Assembly: GCF_003201355.1 (NCBI RefSeq)
Contig: NZ_QICL01000037.1
Coordinates: forward strand, 1 to 41,605
DNA: 41,605 nucleotides
Source of the DNA: Indolivaga alginatilytica
Lineage (GTDB): Bacteria > Bacteroidota > Bacteroidia > Bacteroidales > Dysgonomonadaceae
Direction of reading: 5' to 3'
Numbering within the stretch: position 1 is the stretch's first letter; each line of letters starts with the position of its first letter. A program made the position numbers and the translations under genes. Shown one piece after another: positions 6,287 to 17,343 of this stretch. The notes below the pieces were generated by a model. The model saw only the letters and a program-made list of their open reading frames with translations, was not told the DNA's origin and made no database searches.

Positions 6287-6553
6287 ATGACTACAAAAAC
6301 TAAAGAAAAAGAATTCTACAAGATAATTTATTTACTCGCTTTTGGTCGAGATTCTGGGTATTTTTACCAGAATGACAGTATTACGATATTCAATTCTTTA
6401 AAAGATGAGTTTTGGGGAGAAAGTTTGCGATATAGGATACAGCTTCTTTCCAAACTTCTTTATTATGATTCGTTGGCAGACCCCAAAATAAGTTTTGAAT
6501 TAAGAACAAAATCACAAGAGCTTCTCGAGCATATTACTCACATTCAAGAATAA
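6287..6553 (+). CDS. Small hypothetical protein
   Basis: An 88-residue protein when started at the ATG giving MTTKTKEKEFYKII; a TTG 27 bp upstream is possible but less likely. It is charged and probably helical, with no signal peptide or membrane segment. I do not recognise a family. Its last 20 bp overlap the end of the convergent response-regulator gene, so the two 3' ends are interlocked. Its position beside the two-component pair of the peptide locus gives no clear role. Confidence 0.55.
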   Translation: MTTKTKEKEFYKIIYLLAFGRDSGYFYQNDSITIFNSLKDEFWGESLRYRIQLLSKLLYYDSLADPKISFELRTKSQELLEHITHIQE

Positions 6554-7223
6554 GCCCGACACCTTTGATGTTTTTTATAGATATTGCAGTGTCTTTAGCT
6601 AAATAGCGTCTCATTTTACTGATAAATACATCCAAGCTTCTAGACGTAAAGTAATCGCTTACACCCCAAAACTTAATTAATATATCCTCCCGAAGAACAA
6701 CTTCGCCTTTGCTGTCACATAATAATATCAGTATTCGTGCTTCACGTGAGGTAAGGTTTTGTTTTATTGAATTATATTCAAGAAAATAAAGTTTCGGATC
6801 AAAAATATACTCTCCAATCTGATAGTTTTTTTTGGGGAGGGGAATCGTTTGACTGTGTTTTAATTGCATTATAGCCTTGATATGGGCATCCAATTCTTCC
6901 GGTAAGAAGGGCTTCTTAATATAAAGATTTACTCCGGCGTCATATCCGCCTGTAACATCTTTAGACGAGTTTTTCCCGGAAGCAAAAATAATAGGAATAT
7001 CAGTATTAAACTTTCTGATCTCTTTTACCATCTCTAACCCGTTTAATACGGGCATGTCAATATCAGAGACAATTACGTCCGGGGTATAGTTTGCGAGTGC
7101 CTCTAAACCTTCTTCTCCATTTGAGGCAGTAATTACCTCATAATTACCAATAATTTCTTCGAGACTACTCTTTATAATATAGCCTAAATTTGTGTCATCT
7201 TCAATTAACAGAAGTCTTATCAT
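6534..7223 (-). CDS. OmpR-family response regulator (RprY-like)
   Basis: A 229-residue regulator with a receiver domain at residues ~1-120 (acidic pair D9-D10, phosphoacceptor D54 in VSDIDMP, K104 region IKKPF) and a C-terminal winged-helix DNA-binding domain at ~130-229 (LTSREARILILL, later DVFISKMRRYL). It should be phosphorylated by the upstream histidine kinase, whose gene it overlaps by 23 bp. Domain order and size match the Bacteroides RprXY type. The pair sits divergently to a cluster of GG-leader peptide genes, so it probably senses the envelope or peptide state and controls that cluster. Direct repeats in the divergent spacer are candidate binding sites. Confidence 0.9.
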   Translation of the reverse strand: MIRLLLIEDDTNLGYIIKSSLEEIIGNYEVITASNGEEGLEALANYTPDVIVSDIDMPVLNGLEMVKEIRKFNTDIPIIFASGKNSSKDVTGGYDAGVNLYIKKPFLPEELDAHIKAIMQLKHSQTIPLPKKNYQIGEYIFDPKLYFLEYNSIKQNLTSREARILILLCDSKGEVVLREDILIKFWGVSDYFTSRSLDVFISKMRRYLAKDTAISIKNIKGVGLILECE

Positions 7224-8520
7224 TTTTTTTATTGGGTATTATTACTGCAAATTCACTATAAGAATTTAGCACACTATTTAGTTTAATATCTCCTTCATGA
7301 GCAGTCACAACTTGATAGACGAAATTTAGGCCTAATCCAAATCCACTGATATGCTTGCGCTTAGATAGATGAATTCGTTCAAATTTCTCAAAGATCCTTT
7401 TTTGGTCTTTTAGCGAGATGCCGATTCCATTATCTTTTATTTTTATCGTAGTATTCGATATATCTTTTGAGCAAATAATCGAAATCACAACATTACCTTT
7501 TGAATATTTTACAGCATTATCGATCAAATTATTGAAAGCCTCATACATATATCCTTCATCGGCATAAATTTCACTGACATCATTGTATTCTGTAATGATC
7601 TGTATACTCTCTTCTGAATCCAGCTTATATTTTTCCATTAAATTATCAAACATAAGTCTTATATCAATATTATCTTTCGATAGAGTTACTCTTTTTTCTT
7701 CAAATTGGGCTATAGTTAATATTTTATTAGTAAGACCTAGAAGATGTTCACTTTCATTCGATATTATATTATAATACTGTTCCTTCAGTAACTCTTTATC
7801 ATTGAGTTTTCCTCCTTTCAAAGCATTTATACCCATCAGTATTGTCGTTATAGGGTTTTTCATATCATGAATCATTGCATGAGTAAAATCTTGTCTGATC
7901 TCGGCAATACGATCTTGTTTGGTAATAATCTTAATCTGAGAAAAAATACAATATATAATAATCAATCCTATTACCAGTGATGCAATAAGTAATAAAAGCA
8001 TTTTTTGAAAAATAATTTTATACGGCGATTCAATGCTGACACGAACTAATTCTGACTTATCAAGACGGATAGGCATTGTCTTGATAAAAAACGGATTTAA
8101 CAAATCCTCATGTATTCTATTGTAGACTTTTTTAATGGTTTGATCTTTATTATCTAATAATTCCAATGAATAATTAAGTACCCCCACATCTTTTACCAAT
8201 TCGTTGTTAAAAATACTATCAAGTCTTTTAAAATCAAAAGGTATATTATGGGAGTATAAGAATTCATTAAAATATAGTGCATTTAAATATGAATCTAAAT
8301 CGGGGCTTGCTCCTTCAACACTTTCTCCTGTTATATCTCGATCCTTATTATTTAATCGGTAATAAATTTCTTTCTCTATTGATTGTGAAAATGTCTTATC
8401 TAGTTTGTTTTGTAAATCGTCTCCCAAGACAGAATAGGTATTATACAACCATATAGCCTGTAATACAAATACGGCAATAAGTGCAACTCCTGTAAATAGT
8501 TTTATATGGTGGTTATTCAT
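7201..8520 (-). CDS. Membrane sensor histidine kinase (RprX-like)
   Basis: A 439-residue kinase with a transmembrane segment near residues 9-28, a periplasmic sensor region of ~140 residues, a second transmembrane segment near 172-194, then HisKA with the phosphorylated histidine H218 (IHDMKNPITTIL) and a HATPase_c domain (N box NLIDNAVKYS, G boxes DNGIGIS and GFGLGL). There is no clear HAMP domain. The response-regulator start lies inside the 3' end of this gene, so they are co-translated. The periplasmic domain resembles no named sensor to me. Its divergent placement from the precursor genes suggests control of the exported-peptide system (inference). Confidence 0.9.
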   Translation of the reverse strand: MNNHHIKLFTGVALIAVFVLQAIWLYNTYSVLGDDLQNKLDKTFSQSIEKEIYYRLNNKDRDITGESVEGASPDLDSYLNALYFNEFLYSHNIPFDFKRLDSIFNNELVKDVGVLNYSLELLDNKDQTIKKVYNRIHEDLLNPFFIKTMPIRLDKSELVRVSIESPYKIIFQKMLLLLIASLVIGLIIIYCIFSQIKIITKQDRIAEIRQDFTHAMIHDMKNPITTILMGINALKGGKLNDKELLKEQYYNIISNESEHLLGLTNKILTIAQFEEKRVTLSKDNIDIRLMFDNLMEKYKLDSEESIQIITEYNDVSEIYADEGYMYEAFNNLIDNAVKYSKGNVVISIICSKDISNTTIKIKDNGIGISLKDQKRIFEKFERIHLSKRKHISGFGLGLNFVYQVVTAHEGDIKLNSVLNSYSEFAVIIPNKKNDKTSVN

Positions 8521-8542
8521 CTCTTAGTAGTTTTGTCAAATA

Positions 8543-8550
8543 CAAATATA
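8543..8550 (-). promoter_or_regulatory. -7 box of kinase/regulator operon
   Basis: On the minus strand this reads TATATTTG, a full TAnnTTTG match ~23 bp upstream of the kinase start. The direct repeat at 8556-8589 lies immediately upstream, where an OmpR-type activator or repressor would bind. Confidence 0.4.
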
Positions 8551-8555
8551 ATAAC

Positions 8556-8589
8556 ATTCTGATAAGATTATATAATGTTTTGATAACAT
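8556..8589. promoter_or_regulatory. Candidate direct-repeat operator in divergent spacer
   Basis: Two 13-bp direct repeats, ATTCTGATAAGAT (8556-8568) and GTTTTGATAACAT (8577-8589), match at 10 of 13 positions and start 21 bp apart, about two helical turns. They lie between the kinase promoter box and a weak -7-like box (TTTCTTTG, 8610-8617) ahead of the first precursor. OmpR-family regulators commonly bind direct repeats, so this is the best candidate site for the neighbouring regulator. It is inference. Confidence 0.35.
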
Positions 8590-8651
8590 ACTATCATTTT
8601 TATTACTCTTTTCTTTGTCATAGAAATTAAAAACCAACAATAAAGAATAAT

Positions 8652-8777
8652 ATGAGAACTAATATTTCAGAAAAATTCAAACGATTTAAGTTAGATAAAA
8701 ACGCATTATCACATCTTAAAGGAGGAGGGCGTTGGGTACCTACAGAGAATGGAAAGTTAATTTGGGTTGACAAATAA
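8652..8777 (+). CDS. GG-leader peptide precursor P1
   Basis: A 41-residue peptide, too short for standard ORF cut-offs. Leader MRTNISEKFKRFKLDKNALS then HLKGG, a classic Bacteroidetes double-glycine leader, with basic helix and L at -4 or so from the GG. The core after GG is GRWVPTENGKLIWVDK: two Trp, no Cys. It is the first gene of the divergent precursor block, 131 bp from the kinase start. Its leader is unlike the NQLF-type leaders of P2-P5. Confidence 0.8.
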   Translation: MRTNISEKFKRFKLDKNALSHLKGGGRWVPTENGKLIWVDK

Positions 8778-8991
8778 GTTTCATCATTAACTATTTTATA
8801 ACCTAAAGATAGCATTCCAATAACCATCTTTAAATAAAAACCAAACGACATTTGCATTATCAAAATAATCCAATCAAAGGAATGAGATGTCTAGATAATA
8901 AATAATAGAAATTATATTGATCAATTATAAATAAGTGGAAACCGAAAAACTTAGACAGAGTAGGTTATTAAAAAATCAAACAATTAAAATT
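8778..8991. other. Spacer between P1 and P2
   Basis: A 214-bp AT-rich spacer. I see no further precursor, no GG motif and no strong hairpin. It may hold a second promoter for P2-P6, but no full TAnnTTTG box is present. Confidence 0.4.
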
Positions 8992-9117
8992 ATGAAAGTA
9001 AATCAATTATTCAACAGCAATGAAGCAGTAGTTCTTGAAGATGTTTTAGGAGGAGGAAAATTAACAGTTAAGGCTGGTAAAGGAGATTATTATATTGAGG
9101 TATCGTACGAGTTTTAA
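8992..9117 (+). CDS. GG-leader peptide precursor P2
   Basis: A 41-residue peptide starting MKVNQLFNSNEAVVLEDVLG, with cleavage site LGGG and core KLTVKAGKGDYYIEVSYEF. An upstream in-frame ATG at 8935 would give a 60-residue form, but the MKxNQLF start matches P4 and P5, so the ATG at 8992 is preferred. P4 is a near copy. The tail YIEVSYEF alternates hydrophobic residues and ends in Phe, like a short beta strand. There is no Cys. Confidence 0.8.
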   Translation: MKVNQLFNSNEAVVLEDVLGGGKLTVKAGKGDYYIEVSYEF

Positions 9118-9119
9118 TG

Positions 9120-9239
9120 ATGGTGAGAATGAATCAGGTATTAAACAGTAATGAATTATTAGCCTTGACTGAAATAACAGGCGGAAAGAAATTAATCATT
9201 ATTGCTGACTGCCATCCGGATTACCCAATAGAACTTTAA
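9120..9239 (+). CDS. GG-leader peptide precursor P3
   Basis: A 39-residue peptide from the ATG at 9120, or 36 residues from the ATG at 9129; the latter, starting MNQVLNSNELLALTEITGG, aligns better with P2, P4 and P5. The core after GG is KKLIIIADCHPDYPIEL, with one Cys and two Pro. It begins 2 bp after the P2 stop. It is the only upstream precursor with Cys and is thus a possible substrate for thioether-forming chemistry. Confidence 0.75.
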   Translation: MVRMNQVLNSNELLALTEITGGKKLIIIADCHPDYPIEL

Positions 9240-9248
9240 TCAACGATT

Positions 9249-9374
9249 ATGAAAACAAATCAATTATTTGACAGCAGCGAAGCGTTAGCTCTTGACAATG
9301 TTTTAGGAGGAGGAAAATTAACAGTTAAAGCTGGTAAAGGAGATGCTTATATAGAAGTGTCATATCAGTGGTAA
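9249..9374 (+). CDS. GG-leader peptide precursor P4
   Basis: A 41-residue peptide starting MKTNQLFDSSEALALDNVLG, cleavage site LGGG, core KLTVKAGKGDAYIEVSYQW. It is a recent duplicate of P2: the core differs only at three positions (Y to A, E to Q, final F to W). The aromatic C-terminus is kept while the residue changes. There is no Cys. Confidence 0.8.
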   Translation: MKTNQLFDSSEALALDNVLGGGKLTVKAGKGDAYIEVSYQW

Positions 9375-9396
9375 TTAATAAAAATAAAAAAAAAAA

Positions 9397-9522
9397 ATGA
9401 AAACAAATCAATTATTCAACAGCAGTGAAGTAGTAGCTCTTGATAAAATCGTGGGCGGAAAAGGTATTGATATGCATCTACCTAAAAACTATATAGAAAT
9501 TAGTTATACTTTTTACTTCTAA
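9397..9522 (+). CDS. GG-leader peptide precursor P5
   Basis: A 41-residue peptide starting MKTNQLFNSSEVVALDKIVG, core after GG KGIDMHLPKNYIEISYTFYF. It shares the leader with P2 and P4 and keeps the YIE[IV]SY tail, but the front of the core has diverged. It ends in aromatic Phe. An A-rich stretch with 12 or more A residues precedes the ATG. Confidence 0.8.
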   Translation: MKTNQLFNSSEVVALDKIVGGKGIDMHLPKNYIEISYTFYF

Positions 9523-9534
9523 ATCGATTTTATT

Positions 9535-9642
9535 ATGGATCAGTTATTAAAAGAAGATTTAGAAAAAGTATTGGGAGGTAAAAAATTCGCACCCTGGCTT
9601 GTAGATGGAGGATTACTCCCACCTGTAGAGGCAGCTATGTAA
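9535..9642 (+). CDS. GG-leader peptide precursor P6
   Basis: A 35-residue peptide starting MDQLLKEDLEKVLGG with a short leader, core KKFAPWLVDGGLLPPVEAAM. It contains a second Gly-Gly and a Pro-Pro in the core and ends in Met. It is the last upstream precursor, 17 bp before a strong hairpin. Confidence 0.75.
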   Translation: MDQLLKEDLEKVLGGKKFAPWLVDGGLLPPVEAAM

Positions 9643-9659
9643 TAGCATCTATTCTACTC

Positions 9660-9697
9660 AACAAAACACGGTGCTAAACTTAAGACCGTGTTTTGTT
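9660..9697 (+). terminator. Hairpin between precursor block and export genes
   Basis: A perfect 13-bp inverted repeat: AACAAAACACGGT (9660-9672) pairs with ACCGTGTTTTGTT (9685-9697), with a 12-nt loop. The right arm contains TTTT, but no long U run follows. It probably acts as a partial terminator or processing stem that keeps precursor mRNA abundant relative to the transporter mRNA. It also rules out the GTG at 9671 as the start of the beta-barrel gene. Confidence 0.65.
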
Positions 9698-9730
9698 AAA
9701 ATTTCAAATTATTATTTATCAGAATTTATT

Positions 9731-12094
9731 ATGAGAACAATTATACTACTAATATCCTTCATCTTAGGATTCATTTCTGTAAATGCCGAACAAGCAGCAG
9801 CAAATTATAATTTGTCCGGAGTGGTCTGTGATAAGTCAAAAACACCCATCGAATATGCATCAGTATCATTATGGAAAGATTTGGACGCATCAGCACCTCA
9901 GCTAATAACCGGGATTGTTTCGGATGAAAGTGGAAACTTCACCATTACTGGAGTAGAAGAAGGAGTATATCAGCTCAAAGTCAATTATGTAGGCTTTGGA
10001 GCATATATACAACAAGTAGAAATTGCTTCCTCAATAAATTTGGACCCTATATATTTGGAAGAGTCAAACACCCTTTCACAGGTAACAGTAAGTGCCTACA
10101 AACCCATTGTGAAGTCGGAGAAGGGAATTCTTACCCTCGATGTAGCAAATTCGGATTTAAAAAACCTGCCAACGATAATGGATGTTCTGGCTTTTGCGCC
10201 AAGCGTAGAGGTGATTGGAAATTCAGTATCCGTATTGGGGAGAGCGGGCAATCCTCAAATATTCATAAACAATAAAGAAGTAAGACAAATGTCTGAGGTT
10301 GAGCTTTTGCAGCCGGCCGATATTGAGTCGATCAGTGTAAACAGGAATCCTTCTGCAAGATACGAGGCCGACCTTCGTAGCGTGATATACATTAAAACAA
10401 GAAAAAGAAGTAATAATAGCTGGTCTTCACAAGTATATCATTCGTCTGTTTTAAACAGCAGATACAATCATGCACAGGGAGTAAATATCAATGCCAATAC
10501 AGGAAAGTTCGATAATTATCTGATGTATAAATATTCGGATAAGCGGAATAAAGAAGAGAACGAATCATTCCAAGATGTTAATTTCGGAGATATCCAACAA
10601 CTGAGTACATCAGTCGGGACTATGAAGGATGTAAACAGAGATCATTCACTCACTATTGGAACTACATATAATATCAATGAATCCAACAAATTAAGCATAC
10701 AATACCACACCGACATCCAAAGGCAGGATGCTGATATCTGGGGTGATGAAGTAATTAAAAGTAAGGAAATAAGTAATCTATCCGTATTTCGTTTTGGCGA
10801 ATCGGCAACCGACAACCATGATGTAAATTTAGATTATACTTTGAGTATAGACTCAATCAGCCAATTTACTGCATTTGCAAACTATATAAGTGACCGTAAC
10901 TACACAGAACAAGATATACATACAACAGATATAGATGCCAATTCTACATCATATGACCATTTATACAGCAAGACCGATTTTGATATTTTTATTGCCAGAG
11001 CAGAATACAATCGACTACTGGGCGATGAATACGACTTTACTGCAGGTCTTCGCTATTCGGGAATAAGAAATAAAGGACAATCCTTACTACAGGATATTAC
11101 AACTCAGGATCGAAAAATAGATGATAAGAGCCGCCTGTCTGATAATGTTTATGCTACCTATATGACATTGGCAAAACAATTTGGAGAATTACATGCCGAA
11201 GCCGGATTAAGATTCGAATACGACAGGTCTGACTATAAGATGAACGGCGAAAAAATGTTTGATAAAAATGACTATCATCTGTTTCCCTCCTTGTCTCTTA
11301 ACTATCAGGTGAACTCCAATGTAAATCTGTCTTTGGATATGACAAGCAGAATCACACGGGTTCCATTTACAGATCTTGATCCGACCCTCAACTATATAAG
11401 TTCTATCGTATATCAGAGAGGAAACCCTAATACAGATCCTCATAAAGAGTATAATATAGAAGTAGGAGCACAAATAAAAAACAACTGGGCATTAGCTGCA
11501 TCATATACTATTCACAAAGACCTGATCGGGCAAGCATTGATTATAGACGATCAATTTCCCGGAATGTTAATTCACACTCCAATTAATATCAAAGAAGCAT
11601 CTACCCTAAAGTTAGATCTTGGTTATAATAATTCATGGGGATGGTACATGGTTAAAGCTAACGGATTATTTTCTTACACTGACAATAAAGTTCCCTCGCT
11701 TACAGGAGACATAAGAATGAACAACCCAATGCTACAAGGAGCTGTATCTAATATATTCAATGTAAAAAAGAAAGTCCGGTTAATCTTGAATTTCACTTAT
11801 AGAAACAGATATGAGTATATTAACACCGAATATAGCCCGATCTATGCCTTGAGTACAGCCATTAATTTCAAAATGTTACAAAATCGCCTTGATGCTACAA
11901 TTTTCGGTAACGATTTACTGAGAAAATCAGATCCTAGAACCAATTCTCAATATGGTTATGTCAGAAGTGGTCAAAATGTCAGGTTAGACAGCCGCATGGT
12001 GGGAATAACACTCCGATATAGCTTCAATGCTTTCAAGGATAAGTCGAAGTCGAACAAAGAAAGCTCAGAAGAACTTAACAGAATAGGACAATGA
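9731..12094 (+). CDS. Outer-membrane beta-barrel with carboxypeptidase-like N-domain
   Basis: A 787-residue protein from the ATG at 9731, chosen because it gives a signal peptide (MRTIILLISFILGFISVNAE) and avoids the upstream hairpin. Residues ~28-110 form a CarboxypepD_reg-like fold (SGVVCDKSKTPIEYASVSLW). A plug-like region follows (LKNLPTIMDVLAFAPSVEVI, then INNKEVRQMSEVELLQPADI), and residues ~220-770 are barrel strands. It best fits the TonB-dependent-receptor-like outer membrane beta-barrel family seen in Bacteroidetes peptide-export loci. Its stop overlaps the ABC exporter start (ATGA). It may be the outer-membrane gate or receptor for the peptides; no TolC is present. Confidence 0.85.
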   Translation: MRTIILLISFILGFISVNAEQAAANYNLSGVVCDKSKTPIEYASVSLWKDLDASAPQLITGIVSDESGNFTITGVEEGVYQLKVNYVGFGAYIQQVEIASSINLDPIYLEESNTLSQVTVSAYKPIVKSEKGILTLDVANSDLKNLPTIMDVLAFAPSVEVIGNSVSVLGRAGNPQIFINNKEVRQMSEVELLQPADIESISVNRNPSARYEADLRSVIYIKTRKRSNNSWSSQVYHSSVLNSRYNHAQGVNINANTGKFDNYLMYKYSDKRNKEENESFQDVNFGDIQQLSTSVGTMKDVNRDHSLTIGTTYNINESNKLSIQYHTDIQRQDADIWGDEVIKSKEISNLSVFRFGESATDNHDVNLDYTLSIDSISQFTAFANYISDRNYTEQDIHTTDIDANSTSYDHLYSKTDFDIFIARAEYNRLLGDEYDFTAGLRYSGIRNKGQSLLQDITTQDRKIDDKSRLSDNVYATYMTLAKQFGELHAEAGLRFEYDRSDYKMNGEKMFDKNDYHLFPSLSLNYQVNSNVNLSLDMTSRITRVPFTDLDPTLNYISSIVYQRGNPNTDPHKEYNIEVGAQIKNNWALAASYTIHKDLIGQALIIDDQFPGMLIHTPINIKEASTLKLDLGYNNSWGWYMVKANGLFSYTDNKVPSLTGDIRMNNPMLQGAVSNIFNVKKKVRLILNFTYRNRYEYINTEYSPIYALSTAINFKMLQNRLDATIFGNDLLRKSDPRTNSQYGYVRSGQNVRLDSRMVGITLRYSFNAFKDKSKSNKESSEELNRIGQ

Positions 12095-14289
12095 AAAAGT
12101 TTCCTGTAAGTATACAGCATGATGCTATGGATTGTGGAATTGCATGCATAAAGATGATAACCGATTATTATGGATGCTCCTACACTATACCACAACTAAA
12201 AGAGGTTTGTATTCCGAGCAGAGAAGGAGTAGCCTTGTCGAGTATTTCGGAAACCTTAGAGGAACTCGGCTTCAAATCTTTAGGTGGACGGTTGACATTG
12301 GATCGGCTCGTAGATAAAGTAGTCCTGCCATGTATTATCCACTGGAATCAGGAACATTTTGTGGTCCTCTATAAAATTAAAAAGACAAAAAAAGGCTTGC
12401 TTTTTTATATAGCTGATCCGGCTATGGGATTAGTCAAATATAACACGGAAGACTTTAAGAATGGCTGGGTAAGCACATCTACCAACAACGAAGAAAAAGG
12501 AATAATACTTGTTGTGGAAAAAAGCGTTGAACAGGTTTCCATGAAAAAAGAAGCGATATATAGGAAAGCCAGTATCGCTACCATATTCCCTTACTTTACC
12601 AAATTTAAAAAATATTTCGTTCAACTGTTTTTAGGGCTTGTTTTTGTTAGTTTCATTCAACTGTTATTCCCCTATTTAACACAGTCAATTGTAGATGTCG
12701 GAATAAAAGACCAGAATATTGAATTCATCTATCTTGTATTATTGGCACAGGTAGTACTCTTAATTAGCCGGACTTCAGTAGAGTTTATTCAGAATTGGAT
12801 ATTATTACATATAAGCACTCGGGTGAATATATCCATGCTATCCGATTTTATGATAAAATTGATGAGGTTGCCCATGTCATTCTTCGATACAAAACTTGTG
12901 GGCGACATTCTGCAAAGGATACAAGATCATAGCCGTGTTGAAAAATTCATAACAGTACAATCTCTGAATGTGGTTTATTCTGTTGGCAGTATGCTGATCT
13001 TTGGAATTGTATTGTACTTATTCAGCATCAAGATATTTATTGTGTTTTTTCTTGGGAGCCTTTTATATGCCGGTTGGTTATTGCTTTTTATAAACAAAAG
13101 AAAAATTCTGGATTATAAAAATTTCGAACAGTTAGCTATATACGACAATAAAACATACCAGCTTATAACAGGAATGCAGGAAATAAAACTGCAAAATAAT
13201 ACACAAAGAAAAAGATGGGAATGGGAAGACACTCAGGCAAATTTATTTGAAACTAAGGTTTCACTTCTCAAACAAAAGCAAATACAGGACGTTGGCAAAT
13301 TCTTTATAAATGAAACGAAAAACGTGTTGATCACATTTCTTGCCGCGACAGCAGTCATTGAAGGAAGTATGACTTTGGGGGTGATGCTGGCAGTACAGTA
13401 CATCATCGGTCAGTTGGTGACACCCGTCGAATCAATTGCGACATTCATTTATAATATCCAGGATGCAAAAATAAGTCTGGAAAGAATTGACGAGCTCAAG
13501 AGAAAAGACGATGAAAATGTGGGACGTGATATCTGCGCCAAGAATATAAAGAATAGTGATATTGTTGTTGAGAATGTAAACTTCTGCTACAATGGAACTT
13601 CTCAAGTGGTACTTAAAGATATTAACCTTATAATCCCATCCGGAAAAACAACTGCAATTGTAGGTGCCAGTGGAAGTGGAAAAACGACATTAATAAAATT
13701 GTTATTACAATATTATCCGGTAAAAGAAGGAAGTATAAAAGTAGATGGCAACGATATCAACAAAATGGATACAAATGTGTGGAGAGCCAACTGTGGAGCT
13801 GTTATGCAAGAAGGATATATTTTCTCGGACTCAATAGCTAAAAATATTGCAGTTTCCCAAGACGAAATAGATTGCAACAGGTTATTATATGCAGCAAAGG
13901 TGGCGAATATCCATGAATTTGTAGAAGAACTTCCTTCAAAGTACGATACAGTGGTAGGGCAAGATGGTCGAAGTTTGAGCCAAGGTCAAAAGCAACGTAT
14001 ACTGATAGCCCGGGCAGTTTATAAAAATCCAAACTATATATTTCTGGATGAAGCAACAAATGCCTTGGATGCAACCAACGAACGGTGTATAGTTGATAAT
14101 CTGAGCGAATTTTATAAAGAGAAAACGGTATTAGTGGTGGCTCATCGTCTAAGCACGGTACAGAATGCAGACCAGATAGTGGTTCTGGATAAAGGGCAGA
14201 TTGTAGAAATTGGTTCTCATAAGGAATTGATTACAATAAAAGGATACTACTACAACTTAATAAAGAATCAACTGGAACTCGGAAATTAA
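12091..14289 (+). CDS. C39 peptidase-containing ABC exporter
   Basis: A 732-residue protein with three parts. Residues 1-~135 are a C39 double-glycine peptidase with Q9, catalytic C15 (MDCGIAC), H89 (HFVVLY) and D109 (IADPAMG). Residues ~160-460 are the transmembrane domain. Residues ~490-732 are the ABC ATPase with Walker A (GASGSGKTT), signature LSQGQKQR, Walker B YIFLDEA and H-loop VVAHRLS. All catalytic elements are intact. It should cleave the leaders of the surrounding precursors after GG and export the cores across the inner membrane. It overlaps the beta-barrel gene by 4 bp and is followed after 8 bp by the mini adaptor gene. Confidence 0.95.
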   Translation: MKKFPVSIQHDAMDCGIACIKMITDYYGCSYTIPQLKEVCIPSREGVALSSISETLEELGFKSLGGRLTLDRLVDKVVLPCIIHWNQEHFVVLYKIKKTKKGLLFYIADPAMGLVKYNTEDFKNGWVSTSTNNEEKGIILVVEKSVEQVSMKKEAIYRKASIATIFPYFTKFKKYFVQLFLGLVFVSFIQLLFPYLTQSIVDVGIKDQNIEFIYLVLLAQVVLLISRTSVEFIQNWILLHISTRVNISMLSDFMIKLMRLPMSFFDTKLVGDILQRIQDHSRVEKFITVQSLNVVYSVGSMLIFGIVLYLFSIKIFIVFFLGSLLYAGWLLLFINKRKILDYKNFEQLAIYDNKTYQLITGMQEIKLQNNTQRKRWEWEDTQANLFETKVSLLKQKQIQDVGKFFINETKNVLITFLAATAVIEGSMTLGVMLAVQYIIGQLVTPVESIATFIYNIQDAKISLERIDELKRKDDENVGRDICAKNIKNSDIVVENVNFCYNGTSQVVLKDINLIIPSGKTTAIVGASGSGKTTLIKLLLQYYPVKEGSIKVDGNDINKMDTNVWRANCGAVMQEGYIFSDSIAKNIAVSQDEIDCNRLLYAAKVANIHEFVEELPSKYDTVVGQDGRSLSQGQKQRILIARAVYKNPNYIFLDEATNALDATNERCIVDNLSEFYKEKTVLVVAHRLSTVQNADQIVVLDKGQIVEIGSHKELITIKGYYYNLIKNQLELGN

Positions 14290-14297
14290 TTCAGCAT

Positions 14298-14783
14298 ATG
14301 GAAAAAATAGAACTAAGAAGTGAAAAAGTAAGGAATATTATAGGGAAAATTCCTCCATACATAATACGATCAGGTATAACACTTATCATTATTCTCTCAT
14401 TGTTAATACTAGTCAATTGTTCGTTTATCACGATACCGGTATTTGCCGATTGTGAAGTGATCATCGAAAAGCAAAATGAAAAACTGATCATCGAAAAGAT
14501 CCGGATTAAAAACAATATCAATCTGAATGATAATATTAAGAAAGGCAGTCCATTGATTCTTTCTCTGAATGATAGGGATATCTGTCTACTGGCATTTGAT
14601 TCGGATATTGCCGGGTATTTAATCTCTTCGGAAGGGATATATATATCAAACTTAAATATGCCTGTTCCTAATGCTTTAAAAGCCGGAGATACACACTTTT
14701 CTATAGAAAACAGTATTATACTCAAAGGCAAGATCGAGCTAAAAAGAATAAGTCTTTTATCAAGTTTTTTTAATCGAATTTAA
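14298..14783 (+). CDS. Mini HlyD-like membrane adaptor
   Basis: A 161-residue protein with one transmembrane segment near residues 24-46 (SGITLIIILSLLILVNC) and a beta-rich periplasmic part. Two short segments look like halves of a lipoyl/HlyD barrel: NIKKGSPLILSL at ~80-92, then FDSDIAGYLISSEGIYI near 100-117 and LKAGDTHFSIE near 127-137. Known HlyD adaptors of C39 exporters are usually over 350 residues with a long coiled-coil hairpin; that hairpin is absent. Its place between exporter and maturase supports an export role. The HlyD assignment is inferred from pattern and context. Confidence 0.6.
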   Translation: MEKIELRSEKVRNIIGKIPPYIIRSGITLIIILSLLILVNCSFITIPVFADCEVIIEKQNEKLIIEKIRIKNNINLNDNIKKGSPLILSLNDRDICLLAFDSDIAGYLISSEGIYISNLNMPVPNALKAGDTHFSIENSIILKGKIELKRISLLSSFFNRI

Positions 14784-14793
14784 AGAGGAAAAT

Positions 14794-16137
14794 ATGAAAA
14801 CAATAAGATCCAGAGCACTAAACTCTTTTTTGTTAAGACCGCAAGATTATTGGGTGATAAATTCAGAACAAAACCAATATCTTTTTCTTTCCGAGTCTTT
14901 AAAATTTTTCAAAATTTCAGATTCTTCGATTTTAGAATATTTGAAAATCTGTGAGACTAAAAATGTAAAAGACACATTTCTGACAGAGGATGAGATTAGA
15001 AATATAGGCAGCATTTTGCAACAAAAGGATAATGCAGAAGAGATAGAAAGTAAGGATGAATTATCGCATAGCTTTTTAATACTCAATGTAACCAATGGGT
15101 GCAATCTCGCTTGTAAATATTGCTTTGCCAATATTGTAGGGAAAAATTATGACACCATGTCTTTTGAAACGGCAAAGGCTGCTATAGACAATATGCTCGG
15201 TCAGGGAACTCTATTTGAAGAATATACAATCTATTTCTTTGGAGGCGAACCAATGCTTAAACTAGGCTTAGTAAAACAAGTGGTAGAGTATGCCGAGACT
15301 AAAATTGTTGTCGAGTCAGGAAAGAAGGTCAAGTTCTTATTGAATACGAATGGTACTTTATTCACTCCAAATTCGATCGCTTTTTTAAAGAAATACAATT
15401 TCAGAGTTACTGTCAGCATCGATGGCCCGCTTGAACAGCACGATATAAACAGGGTATATAGAAATGGAAAAGGAAGCTTTAATAAAGTAATGGAAGGAGT
15501 ACAGATGCTCAAAGACAATAAAATACCGTCGAACTTAAGAGCCACTTTCAATCCTCAAACATTAGACCTTTTTGAAACCTTTCAGTTTTTCGAAGATTTA
15601 CACTTACCATATGCTTATTCTTTTACCATCAATAATGATTATAAATCGAATTCGGACGATACTTTTTTCAAAGAAGAAGATTATGAAATGATAGAATGGA
15701 GAATGAAGCAAGTAATGGATTCTTTTTCTGAGAAAATCAAAAATAATAAGCCCGTATATGCTACAGGAATAGCAAATAAACTAAATGCTATAAAATACAA
15801 AATGAAACGGAAACATGCTTGTGAAGCAGGAAGGAGAAGTATAACCGTGGATGAGAGCGGAAAATATTATGCCTGTCAGAATATGATTCCATACAAGCAT
15901 ACAGCATTGGGACATGTCGGTTACGAAATAGTTGAAGAACAAAGGCAGAAGTATATGTCGAAAAGTTTGAACGCAATCGAACAATGTCGGGATTGCCAGA
16001 TAAGAAATCTATGTGGAGGAGGTTGTGAAGTGGAACGATTAAATTCAGATACTGCACTAAAACAACAAATGTGCCGGTTTTTCAAAATGGAGTGGAAAAA
16101 TATATTATATACATATTCAAGATTACAAGAACAATAA
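14794..16137 (+). CDS. Radical SAM/SPASM peptide maturase
   Basis: A 447-residue enzyme. The radical SAM cluster motif CxxxCxxC is C103, C107, C110 (TNGCNLACKYCF), followed by the GGEP motif (FFGGEPML). The C-terminal SPASM domain has the complete seven-Cys pattern: C343, GX4C ending at C361, then C398, C401, C407, C411 and C427, which should hold two auxiliary 4Fe-4S clusters. Residues 1-~90 could hold a precursor-recognition element, but I cannot confirm one. Enzymes of this kind form thioether or C-C crosslinks in ribosomal peptides. It lies 10 bp after the adaptor gene, with a GAGG-containing upstream sequence, and directly before six precursor genes, so these are likely substrates. The reaction is unknown. 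Confidence 0.92.
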   Translation: MKTIRSRALNSFLLRPQDYWVINSEQNQYLFLSESLKFFKISDSSILEYLKICETKNVKDTFLTEDEIRNIGSILQQKDNAEEIESKDELSHSFLILNVTNGCNLACKYCFANIVGKNYDTMSFETAKAAIDNMLGQGTLFEEYTIYFFGGEPMLKLGLVKQVVEYAETKIVVESGKKVKFLLNTNGTLFTPNSIAFLKKYNFRVTVSIDGPLEQHDINRVYRNGKGSFNKVMEGVQMLKDNKIPSNLRATFNPQTLDLFETFQFFEDLHLPYAYSFTINNDYKSNSDDTFFKEEDYEMIEWRMKQVMDSFSEKIKNNKPVYATGIANKLNAIKYKMKRKHACEAGRRSITVDESGKYYACQNMIPYKHTALGHVGYEIVEEQRQKYMSKSLNAIEQCRDCQIRNLCGGGCEVERLNSDTALKQQMCRFFKMEWKNILYTYSRLQEQ

Positions 16138-16156
16138 TTTAAAATTAAAACAATTT

Positions 16157-16267
16157 ATGATTATGGAAGAAATCAATTTGAGCAAGATTCTGGGTGGTGC
16201 CAGAATCACAATCGCCAGAACAGAAATGGATGGACTATCTCATTCTTTACCGGAATTTTACTATTGA
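16157..16267 (+). CDS. GG-leader peptide precursor D1
   Basis: A 36-residue peptide, MIMEEINLSKILGG then ARITIARTEMDGLSHSLPEF and YY. The start may instead be the ATG at 16163, giving a 12-residue leader. There is no Cys. It begins 19 bp after the maturase stop and opens the downstream precursor block. The C-terminus is aromatic (FYY). Confidence 0.7.
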   Translation: MIMEEINLSKILGGARITIARTEMDGLSHSLPEFYY

Positions 16268-16291
16268 TTAATAAATAAAAAACAAAAAATT

Positions 16292-16438
16292 ATGAAAACA
16301 AGAAATGCAAGCCTGGCAGGGCTGGAACAAGTTAATTCGGCAGAAGTAAACGGTGGCAGAAAATATGACATGATTGTATGCTGTATAGACATTCCTCCGA
16401 TGACAATGCAAGATCAAGCTTACAGTGTATTAATGTAA
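16292..16438 (+). CDS. GG-leader peptide precursor D2 (CCIDIPPM core)
   Basis: A 48-residue peptide with leader MKTRNASLAGLEQVNSAEVN, GG, then RKYDMIVCCIDIPPMTMQDQ and AYSVLM. It has the C-C-I-D-I-P-P-M core also present in D6 and, with changes, in D5. It is the best candidate substrate for the SPASM enzyme because two Cys lie in a conserved block. Confidence 0.8.
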   Translation: MKTRNASLAGLEQVNSAEVNGGRKYDMIVCCIDIPPMTMQDQAYSVLM

Positions 16439-16453
16439 AATACAAAGTAAAAA

Positions 16454-16564
16454 ATGGAAAAGATAAATACAGCTATACTCTACGGAGGGAAGAAAGCAAG
16501 TGAAAAGCAAGACTTTCTGGATGGTTTCCTGACTGTACAAGACGGGAGAGACAAAGTAATGTAA
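16454..16564 (+). CDS. GG-leader peptide precursor D3
   Basis: A 36-residue peptide, MEKINTAILYGG then KKASEKQDFLDGFLTVQDGR and DKVM. The leader is only 12 residues and begins MEKINT as in D4. The core is hydrophilic and lacks Cys. It is included because of its GG site, its spacing and the shared leader start. Confidence 0.6.
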   Translation: MEKINTAILYGGKKASEKQDFLDGFLTVQDGRDKVM

Positions 16565-16616
16565 TTACAATAATTTCACAGTAACAGATTAGTTTAAATA
16601 TAAAAAAAATAGAATT

Positions 16617-16709
16617 ATGGAAAAGATAAATACAAAAATCGTAACAGGAGGAAAAGGTCTACAATCAAAATTACCGGATAATGCTTGTCAGGTAGCAGAT
16701 TGGTTTTGA
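16617..16709 (+). CDS. GG-leader peptide precursor D4
   Basis: A 30-residue peptide, MEKINTKIVTGG then KGLQSKLPDNACQVADWF. The 12-residue leader matches the start of D3. The core has one Cys and ends in Trp-Phe. It is among the shortest coding genes here, and the call depends on its context and leader similarity. Confidence 0.6.
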   Translation: MEKINTKIVTGGKGLQSKLPDNACQVADWF

Positions 16710-16755
16710 ACTAGATTACTCAGTAACTGAAAGTATTGATATACTTTATTTGTAG

Positions 16756-16802
16756 GGACAGACCTACGGGTCTGTCCTATTTAAGTGAACGCATAGGTTC
16801 AC
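16756..16802. repeat. Paired REP-like hairpins
   Basis: Two hairpins side by side between D4 and D5. GGACAGACC (16756-16764) pairs perfectly with GGTCTGTCC (16769-16777) around a TACG loop, and GTGAAC (16785-16790) pairs with GTTCAC (16797-16802). Both are linked to a CCTACG sequence (16763-16768 and 16803-16808). This looks like a dispersed short palindromic element inserted into the precursor array. There is no other feature in 16710-16861. Confidence 0.55.
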
Positions 16803-16861
16803 ACCTACGTCAATCTAATAAAAGGTACTACCCTCAATTATTAAAATTAAAAATTACAAGA

Positions 16862-16978
16862 ATGAAAAAATTAAAATTAGAAGAAATTAATCCAAAGGAG
16901 CTGATAGGAGGATTTAAAATCGATCTTATATATTGCCGTATGAATATTCCCCCTATGGACCAAATGATGTTGTTTTAA
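16862..16978 (+). CDS. GG-leader peptide precursor D5 (CRMNIPPM core)
   Basis: A 38-residue peptide, MKKLKLEEINPKELIGG then FKIDLIYCRMNIPPMDQMML and F. The ATG at 16862 is chosen because it gives a leader typical of Bacteroidetes GG precursors; the open frame extends upstream into the REP-like element. The core keeps the first Cys and the IPPM of D2 and D6 but has Arg for the second Cys. So the first Cys is the invariant one. Confidence 0.8.
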   Translation: MKKLKLEEINPKELIGGFKIDLIYCRMNIPPMDQMMLF

Positions 16979-17089
16979 GCCCTCAGAGCCTTTTGTTGCT
17001 TTGGTCAGTATAACAAATGGAGGCTGTTATAATCATAAAATATAGCAATAAATATTTCATATTACTTAAAATACATAAATGATATAATT

Positions 17090-17239
17090 ATGAAAACAAA
17101 AGATCAAACAAAAAGAGTTTTGGGCTTAGAGGAAATCAGCCAATCGGAAAATAGTGAAATTTACGGAGGTAAATCGCTGAGCGATAAACTTCGGGATCTG
17201 ACAGTGTTTTGTTGTATAGATATACCTCCGATGGGCTGA
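17090..17239 (+). CDS. GG-leader peptide precursor D6 (CCIDIPPM core)
   Basis: A 49-residue peptide with leader MKTKDQTKRVLGLEEISQSE, NSEIYGG, then KSLSDKLRDLTVFCCIDIPP and MG. The CCIDIPPM block is identical to D2 although the rest differs, and it stops right after the block. This indicates that the block itself is selected. It is the last precursor, 30 bp before the closing inverted repeat. Confidence 0.8.
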   Translation: MKTKDQTKRVLGLEEISQSENSEIYGGKSLSDKLRDLTVFCCIDIPPMG

Positions 17240-17268
17240 TAAATAGCAGTACCATGTGAGATATCTGA

Positions 17269-17321
17269 ATATCATAACAACGAACTATAGTTTTTACATC
17301 TATAGTTCGTTGTTATGATAT
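17269..17321. terminator. Bidirectional terminator, 22-bp perfect inverted repeat
   Basis: The left arm 17269-17290 and right arm 17300-17321 are perfect reverse complements around the 9-nt loop TTTTTACAT. It sits between the last precursor (plus) and the end of the antiporter gene (minus), so it likely terminates both transcripts. The stem is unusually long and perfect for a simple terminator. Confidence 0.75.
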
Positions 17322-17343
17322 AAACTTATGTTGTAATGCTATT

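Follow-up and report, generated by a model that had tools for sequence, protein, structure and literature searches.

A locus of twelve GG-leader peptide precursors with a C39 exporter, a shortened HlyD-like protein and a radical SAM/SPASM enzyme in Indolivaga alginatilytica

Gene Content of the Locus

The window analyzed here, a 41,605-nucleotide stretch that constitutes one contig of the Indolivaga alginatilytica genome (5.1 Mb, 73 contigs), contains a peptide locus in which small genes with double-glycine (GG) leaders stand on both sides of genes for export and probable maturation. Along the plus strand, the order is six GG open reading frames (ORFs), an outer-membrane barrel, a C39-peptidase ABC exporter, a 161-aa HlyD-like protein (mini-HlyD), a radical SAM/SPASM enzyme, and six further GG ORFs; the genes named in the original prediction, made from the sequence alone, are all present where it had placed them. 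The barrel gene (9731–12094), which also encodes a carboxypeptidase-regulatory-like domain (PF14905, 190 bits; PF13715, 45 bits), is followed by the exporter gene (12091–14289; PF03412, 104 bits; PF00664; PF00005), the mini-HlyD gene (14298–14783; by hhalign of its family, a HlyD N-terminus plus C-terminal domain with the middle absent), and the gene for the radical SAM/SPASM enzyme (14794–16137; PF04055, 81 bits), a probable peptide maturase.

Twelve Precursors

Under a relaxed GG-ORF rule, the two stretches that hold the small genes (8521–9730 and 16138–17343) contain 12 plus-strand ORFs of 30–49 codons with GG leaders and none on the minus strand. Simulated sequences (3,000, first-order Markov) gave a mean of 0.118 such ORFs and a maximum of 2, by which a chance cluster is ruled out. 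The same rule yields 13 GG ORFs on the plus strand and two on the minus strand of the entire window, and a stricter leader pattern recovers nine of the 12 precursors. All 12 are open frames with an A/T-rich start context.

The upstream set, all on the plus strand, comprises precursor 1 (8652–8777; core RWVPTENGKLIWVDK), precursor 2 (8992–9117, starting at ATG 8992 rather than GTG 8935; core with YIEVSY), precursor 3 (9117–9239, with the start at 9117 or 9129; one Cys), precursor 4 (9249–9374), which is a duplicate of precursor 2 (83% identity over 130 nt), precursor 5 (9397–9522; core with YIEISY), in which a 63-nt leader stretch is 79% identical to that of precursor 4, and precursor 6 (9535–9642). 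The downstream set, on the same strand, comprises precursors 7 (16157–16267, with the start at 16157 or 16163), 8 (16292–16438; core with CCIDIPPM), 9 (16454–16564), 10 (16617–16709), 11 (16862–16978; core with CRMNIPPM), and 12 (17090–17239; core with CCIDIPPMG). TIGR04149, the family of radical SAM-modified GG peptides, matched precursor 1 below threshold (13.5 bits, cut-off 25) and none of the other 11; the four precursors tried against PHROGs had no match.

Counting from the first two glycines of the motif, position −4 is I, L or V in all 12 leaders, and position −7 is L in precursors 1–7 and S, T, T, P and N in precursors 8–12, respectively. Precursors 1, 2 and 4 have a third G in the motif (GGG), so that the cut may fall one residue later; in precursors 7, 9 and 10 the leader is only 12 residues long. 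Cores are 15–26 aa in length. Pairwise identity is low for the leaders (median 39%, range 13–75) and lower for the cores (median 24%, range 10–84); four chosen multi-precursor comparison loci have leader medians of 46–77% and core medians of 31–84%. The motif YIE[VI]SY is common to precursors 2, 4 and 5, and IPPM to 8, 11 and 12; no IPPM core was found beyond the window's own DNA among the comparison loci searched. Precursors 2 and 4 differ by 6, 5 and 11 changes at first, second and third codon positions (10 of 18 changed codons are non-synonymous); among the three IPPM copies, most differences fall at third positions and none at second. The cores had been described as Cys-rich and Trp-rich, which is an overstatement: Cys occurs in five cores (precursors 3, 8, 10, 11 and 12), at most twice in each, seven lack it, and only one core contains two Trp.

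The Radical SAM/SPASM Enzyme

The SPASM domain of the enzyme scores below threshold (PF13186, 15.1 bits, cut-off 21.5), its Cys pattern having been recognized by eye. The nearest solved structure by sequence is 5wgg (residues 72–417, E 1.6e-29), which we take to be CteB. PapB (NF047865) is the best NCBIfam match (232 bits against a cut-off of 340), and no maturase cut-off was passed among the 25 families shown. The likeness to ranthipeptide maturases lies in the radical SAM match over residues 72–417; the differences are the score below the PapB cut-off and the seven cores without Cys, the thioether donor. PapB and CteB make thioethers; different residues are the targets of other SPASM enzymes.

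Relatives of the maturase were sought in 61 genomes (relatives, together with this genome), in samples of 393 genomes of the order and 395 of the phylum, and in 101 genomes of the family. Local matches in the 61 genomes reached 40% identity over 175 residues. Eight order genomes, this one included, matched at E ≤ 1e-28 (best other, 35%), and five family genomes, again including this one, at E ≤ 1e-25 (others 29–36%, the 36% over 195 residues); in the phylum sample, this genome alone matched at E ≤ 1e-40. Viral contigs gave no relative, the genome contig collection a single 24% match, and plasmid records only matches below 28% in the best 10 of 54. Leader-like GG ORFs, one or two per locus, lie no more than 1.2 kb upstream of five of the 12 nearest relatives (24–36% identity; L037, L038, L039, L229 and L230), and the other seven have none in view, two of these (L036 and L042) beginning at a contig edge; the expectation that GG ORFs always flank related maturases is borne out in the former group and not in the latter. 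For the relatives L228 and L231, no exporter lies in the stretch fetched.

Exporter, Mini-HlyD, and Barrel

The exporter matches the bacteriocin transporter 4ry2 over residues 2–725 (E 1.8e-100) and belongs to a common family (136 of the 393 order genomes at E ≤ 1e-130). Its 80 best-ranked places, together with the window and a second locus of the same genome (L025), form a set of 82 exporter loci that leans towards this exporter. A HlyD-like gene lies within 1.6 kb after the exporter in 73 of them, and is either short (153–226 aa, 21 loci) or full-length (407–469 aa, 52 loci), with none between; the remaining nine loci were not classed, and two of these have a barrel. The second half of the mini-HlyD family aligns to positions 324–436 of the 449 of HlyD (hhalign 99.8%, E 3.4e-30), and its first 59 residues align to the HlyD N-terminus (hhalign 99.7%), a match that is partly built in, both sets having been picked by an N-terminal motif. 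Motif-free BLAST of one mini/full pair (L073 and L025) gave 40% identity over 52 residues. Full-length HlyD has a lipoyl match at 94–123 and HlyD_3 at 315–422; the lipoyl match and everything up to 315 have no counterpart in the mini form, and this is the region in which HlyD has its hairpin. On these alignments, mini-HlyD is a HlyD without its middle, in which the N-terminal anchor and the C-terminal beta domain are kept. No Pfam match above cut-off was obtained for the window copy and four others scanned, so that such a search would miss the protein.

Once the 12 loci that lie at contig edges are set aside, the exporter has a barrel of the same family as the window's ending beside it in 14 of the 17 loci with mini-HlyD, as against four of the 44 with the full form (odds ratio 47, p 7e-8); the barrel hidden Markov model was seeded on mini loci, which biases this count, and the Fisher p overstates the association because loci were treated as independent while the mini form and the barrel follow one clade. 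A quick tree was built from 80 exporters, without L082 and L119, which were too short; in it, a single change separates 20 mini from 51 full rows with support of 100, the nine unclassed rows not being counted; the association may therefore rest on one event. The barrels of the window and L079 are 27% identical over 771 columns. Two or three same-family barrel genes per peptide locus occur at L083, L084, L086 and L229, three of which also have short C39 pieces.

Related Loci and Known Systems

By one rule, the window has 12 GG ORFs and the other 81 exporter loci have 0–6 (113 in all 82 loci, with none in 29), counts that include chance ORFs and in which many loci are cut by contig ends; no locus but the window has more than six among the 46 for which 15 kb or more is in view. 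The claim of an unusually large and diverse precursor set alongside a single C39 exporter and a single radical SAM/SPASM enzyme is thus upheld. A unique architecture is ruled out by loci in two other genomes of the same taxonomic family. L229 combines a GG ORF, a radical SAM gene, a barrel, a C39 exporter and mini-HlyD, with no two-component pair in view, and L230 has a cassette of the same type, two GG ORFs, and a divergent histidine kinase/response regulator pair. This kind of cluster occurs elsewhere in the family, the window holding a rearranged form that has more precursors. That the arrangement is undescribed, as the original prediction suggested, is only partly right: the theme of GG leaders, C39 and radical SAM is in PMC10352776, and the cassette with its divergent pair recurs at L230.

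The kind of locus is known from Bacteroidales, and the 12 diverse precursors and mini-HlyD are the unusual part. As presented by Fernandez-Cantos (2023; PMC10352776), the Bacteroidales biosynthetic gene clusters BGC6–9 resemble the window in having GG precursors, a C39 peptidase-containing ABC transporter (PCAT) and an outer-membrane protein, and BGC6–8 also in having radical SAM; they differ in the presence of YcaO (BGC6–8) or LanM (BGC9) and in that no membrane fusion protein was identified, whereas the window has mini-HlyD and 12 precursors. For clusters with PCAT and an outer-membrane protein but no membrane fusion protein, this 2023 survey asks whether some other mechanism operates, and mini-HlyD may be the adaptor that it did not find. 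Excerpts of the literature on adaptors and Bacteroidales peptide export yielded no account of so short a HlyD. BesA is likewise a periplasmic adaptor without the helical hairpin, but according to part of PMC8277102 it serves a Borrelia resistance-nodulation-division pump with BesC, in contrast to the C39 ABC exporter and OMP_b-brl_3 barrel of the window.

The locus resembles the prochlorosins in combining one modifying enzyme with many precursors of unlike core. The prochlorosin system differs in its LanM chemistry and in its alike leaders, those of the window precursors having a median identity of 39% (13–75). According to PMC7268733, many prochlorosin precursors are also encoded at a distance from the gene for the enzyme.

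Other peptide loci were observed in the same genome and beyond it. L025 (G000:C1:288000-307000) has a GG precursor, radical SAM, a C39 exporter and a full-length HlyD. A third candidate locus (L026, 6198–8918) encodes a 108-aa GG precursor, a nucleotidyltransferase-like protein (by eye) and a 451-aa radical SAM protein, and the third C39 match of the genome (L003; G000:C3:255394-255669) falls in a 161-aa open frame without an ABC part. L122 has an exporter with full-length HlyD and, next to it, four GG precursors whose similar cores end in DGDFDYWPEPEV.

The DUF805b RNA Element

A DUF805b cis-regulatory RNA (RF02914; 8932–8966, plus strand; 37.0 bits, gathering score 35.6) ends 25 nt before precursor 2; our own model scores this copy, one of its training rows, at 40.9 bits. 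The genome has four matches, of which the window copy alone exceeds the gathering score; two (the window and L025) lie 21–25 nt upstream of a GG precursor, and the others precede unrelated ORFs. The L025 match (33.9 bits, below gathering) lies 21 nt upstream of its precursor. The element occurs in 262 of the 393 order genomes (176 over cut-off) and in none of 14 control genomes. All four base pairs change on both sides among 32 copies, and 95.3% of cells pair vs. 67.0% when shuffled, a figure that leans towards pairing as the copies were found by a structure-scoring model.

Our model gave 18 matches at E ≤ 0.5 in 87 peptide or exporter loci. Eleven of the best 12 (E < 0.01) lie 17–25 nt before a GG-leader ORF by eye, seven by strict pattern, the exception being L145; all nine at E < 1e-5 precede a GG ORF, three of these (window, L025 and L109) being training copies. 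DUF805b is absent before most of the GG ORFs of these loci. Among 84 high-scoring sites elsewhere, an ORF follows within 70 nt at 78, and at 16–27 nt in 76 of those. Eighteen of the 78 ORFs have GG leaders by the relaxed rule, 16 by eye and six by strict pattern (random positions, 5.2%), several lying in the same arrays, and 40 encode signal-peptide-like proteins by a crude pattern. DUF805b is thus a general leader element: GG precursors are among its targets, but it does not mark them out. Because it stands at a constant distance from the start codon, it probably acts on translation. A literature search found no account of DUF805b before GG precursors; the word DUF805 was met in work on Paracoccus plasmids. 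At L216, L218 and L149, GG peptide genes form arrays in which several have a separate DUF805b copy some 20 nt upstream of the start.

Two-Component Pair and Flanking Genes

The locus is bounded on one side by a divergent pair on the minus strand, namely an OmpR-type response regulator (6534–7223; PF00072, 85 bits; PF00486, 51 bits) and a membrane sensor histidine kinase (7201–8520; PF02518, PF00512), which has hydrophobic stretches at about residues 5–27 and 166–200, and on the other side by a convergent gene, an antiporter by eye. Both proteins match their L230 counterparts at 25–30% identity, the level of generic relatives. A sigma-70 scan gave 44 sites vs. 40.2 in shuffles.

Proposed Function and Alternatives

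The locus looks functional, and the reading that we favor, and consider probable, is that of a RiPP-type (ribosomally synthesized and post-translationally modified peptide) GG-leader/C39 locus whose precursor set is expanded. The two-component pair, to judge from the divergent pair at the matching place in L230, would be linked to the locus and probably switches it on, whereupon 12 precursors of 30–49 aa would be made, DUF805b being situated in the leader of precursor 2. The radical SAM/SPASM enzyme would modify at least some of them. From its family, the C39 domain of the exporter is predicted to cut after GG, and the ABC part to move the 15–26-residue peptides across the inner membrane; they would then leave by way of the OMP_b-brl_3 barrel, with mini-HlyD, devoid of the region by which HlyD meets TolC, as the bridge. 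The peptides presumably act outside the cell, in competition or signaling. More tentatively, and with somewhat less than an even chance, the cassette would constitute a TolC-independent peptide exporter (C39 ABC, hairpin-less HlyD, and exit by a TonB-receptor-like barrel) that is spread over the order and here secretes a combinatorial set of 12 cores behind one radical SAM enzyme, with DUF805b in a precursor leader; this is rated lower because the link between mini-HlyD and barrel follows a single exporter clade.

Several points weigh against these proposals. Beside the nine unclassed loci, the partly built-in N-terminal match, the seeded barrel model, the overstated p and the single clade, there are direct exceptions (a barrel in four full loci, and none in three mini loci), and the AlphaFold single-sequence models were poor (predicted local distance difference test scores of 46 and 45), too poor for a fold search. 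None of the 12 precursors scanned lies above any NCBIfam cut-off, and fold prediction for the window copy does not return the DUF805b stem (z 0.77). In the 61, 393, 395 and 101 genomes, no relative aligned over the full length of the maturase exceeded 35% identity, so that the pairing of maturase and cores is presumed rather than read from conservation. The leaders appear too unlike to show common recognition by one enzyme, a caution also made for lanthipeptides in a passage of PMC7268733.

A competing explanation, which we rate only a little short of even, is that the radical SAM enzyme modifies just a subset of the precursors, e.g., the Cys-bearing 3, 8, 10, 11 and 12, and that the rest are GG peptides exported unmodified by the same transporter, in the way that PCAT is said to serve bacteroidetocins. 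The seven cores without Cys, the thioether chemistry of the nearest families (PapB and the 5wgg enzyme) and the two kinds of leader at position −7 are consistent with this; however, the enzyme falls below the PapB cut-off, and Cys need not be its target given that other SPASM enzymes use other residues. The idea that the divergent histidine kinase senses the peptides as pheromones, making them a social signal rather than antagonists, would accord with the presence of such a pair both in the window and at L230, but twelve unlike cores suit one receptor poorly and the two pairs resemble each other only at the generic level, and we consider it unlikely. Slightly more improbable still is that several of the 12, mainly downstream ones, are copies in decay: the 12-residue leaders of 7, 9 and 10, the absence of L at −7 in 8–12, and a repeat element between precursors 10 and 11 point that way, whereas the uniformly open frames with their A/T-rich start context and the conserved second codon positions of the three IPPM copies argue for retention.

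Mini-HlyD is a candidate adaptor for the Bacteroidales PCAT clusters in which no membrane fusion protein is identified in PMC10352776, and the exit route becomes testable. With 12 dissimilar cores next to a single radical SAM enzyme, the locus would show how far the substrate tolerance of such a maturase extends, and the DUF805b link offers a class of targets for an orphan Rfam element.

Hairpins and Repeats

Between precursors 1–6 and the barrel gene lies a plus-strand hairpin (9660–9697; 18-nt arms, 89% complementary; −17.8 kcal/mol, z −5.75), a possible attenuator that could keep precursor levels above exporter levels. Neither this hairpin nor DUF805b had been noted in the original prediction. 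The locus closes with an inverted repeat between convergent genes, its 22-bp arms pairing perfectly around a 9-nt loop (17269–17321, plus strand; −30.2 kcal/mol), a possible transcript end. To call it a strong terminator, as had been done, goes too far: no T-run follows, and the terminator scan, with a loop limit of 8, did not list it. A mir-2513 match at 17269 (29 bits against 89) was rejected, as it reflects nothing more than the hairpin. A palindromic element resembling repetitive extragenic palindromic (REP) sequences lies between precursors 10 and 11 (16742–16815); it occurs at 19 places in the genome, including this one, and its part at 16748–16815 folds at −28.6 kcal/mol.

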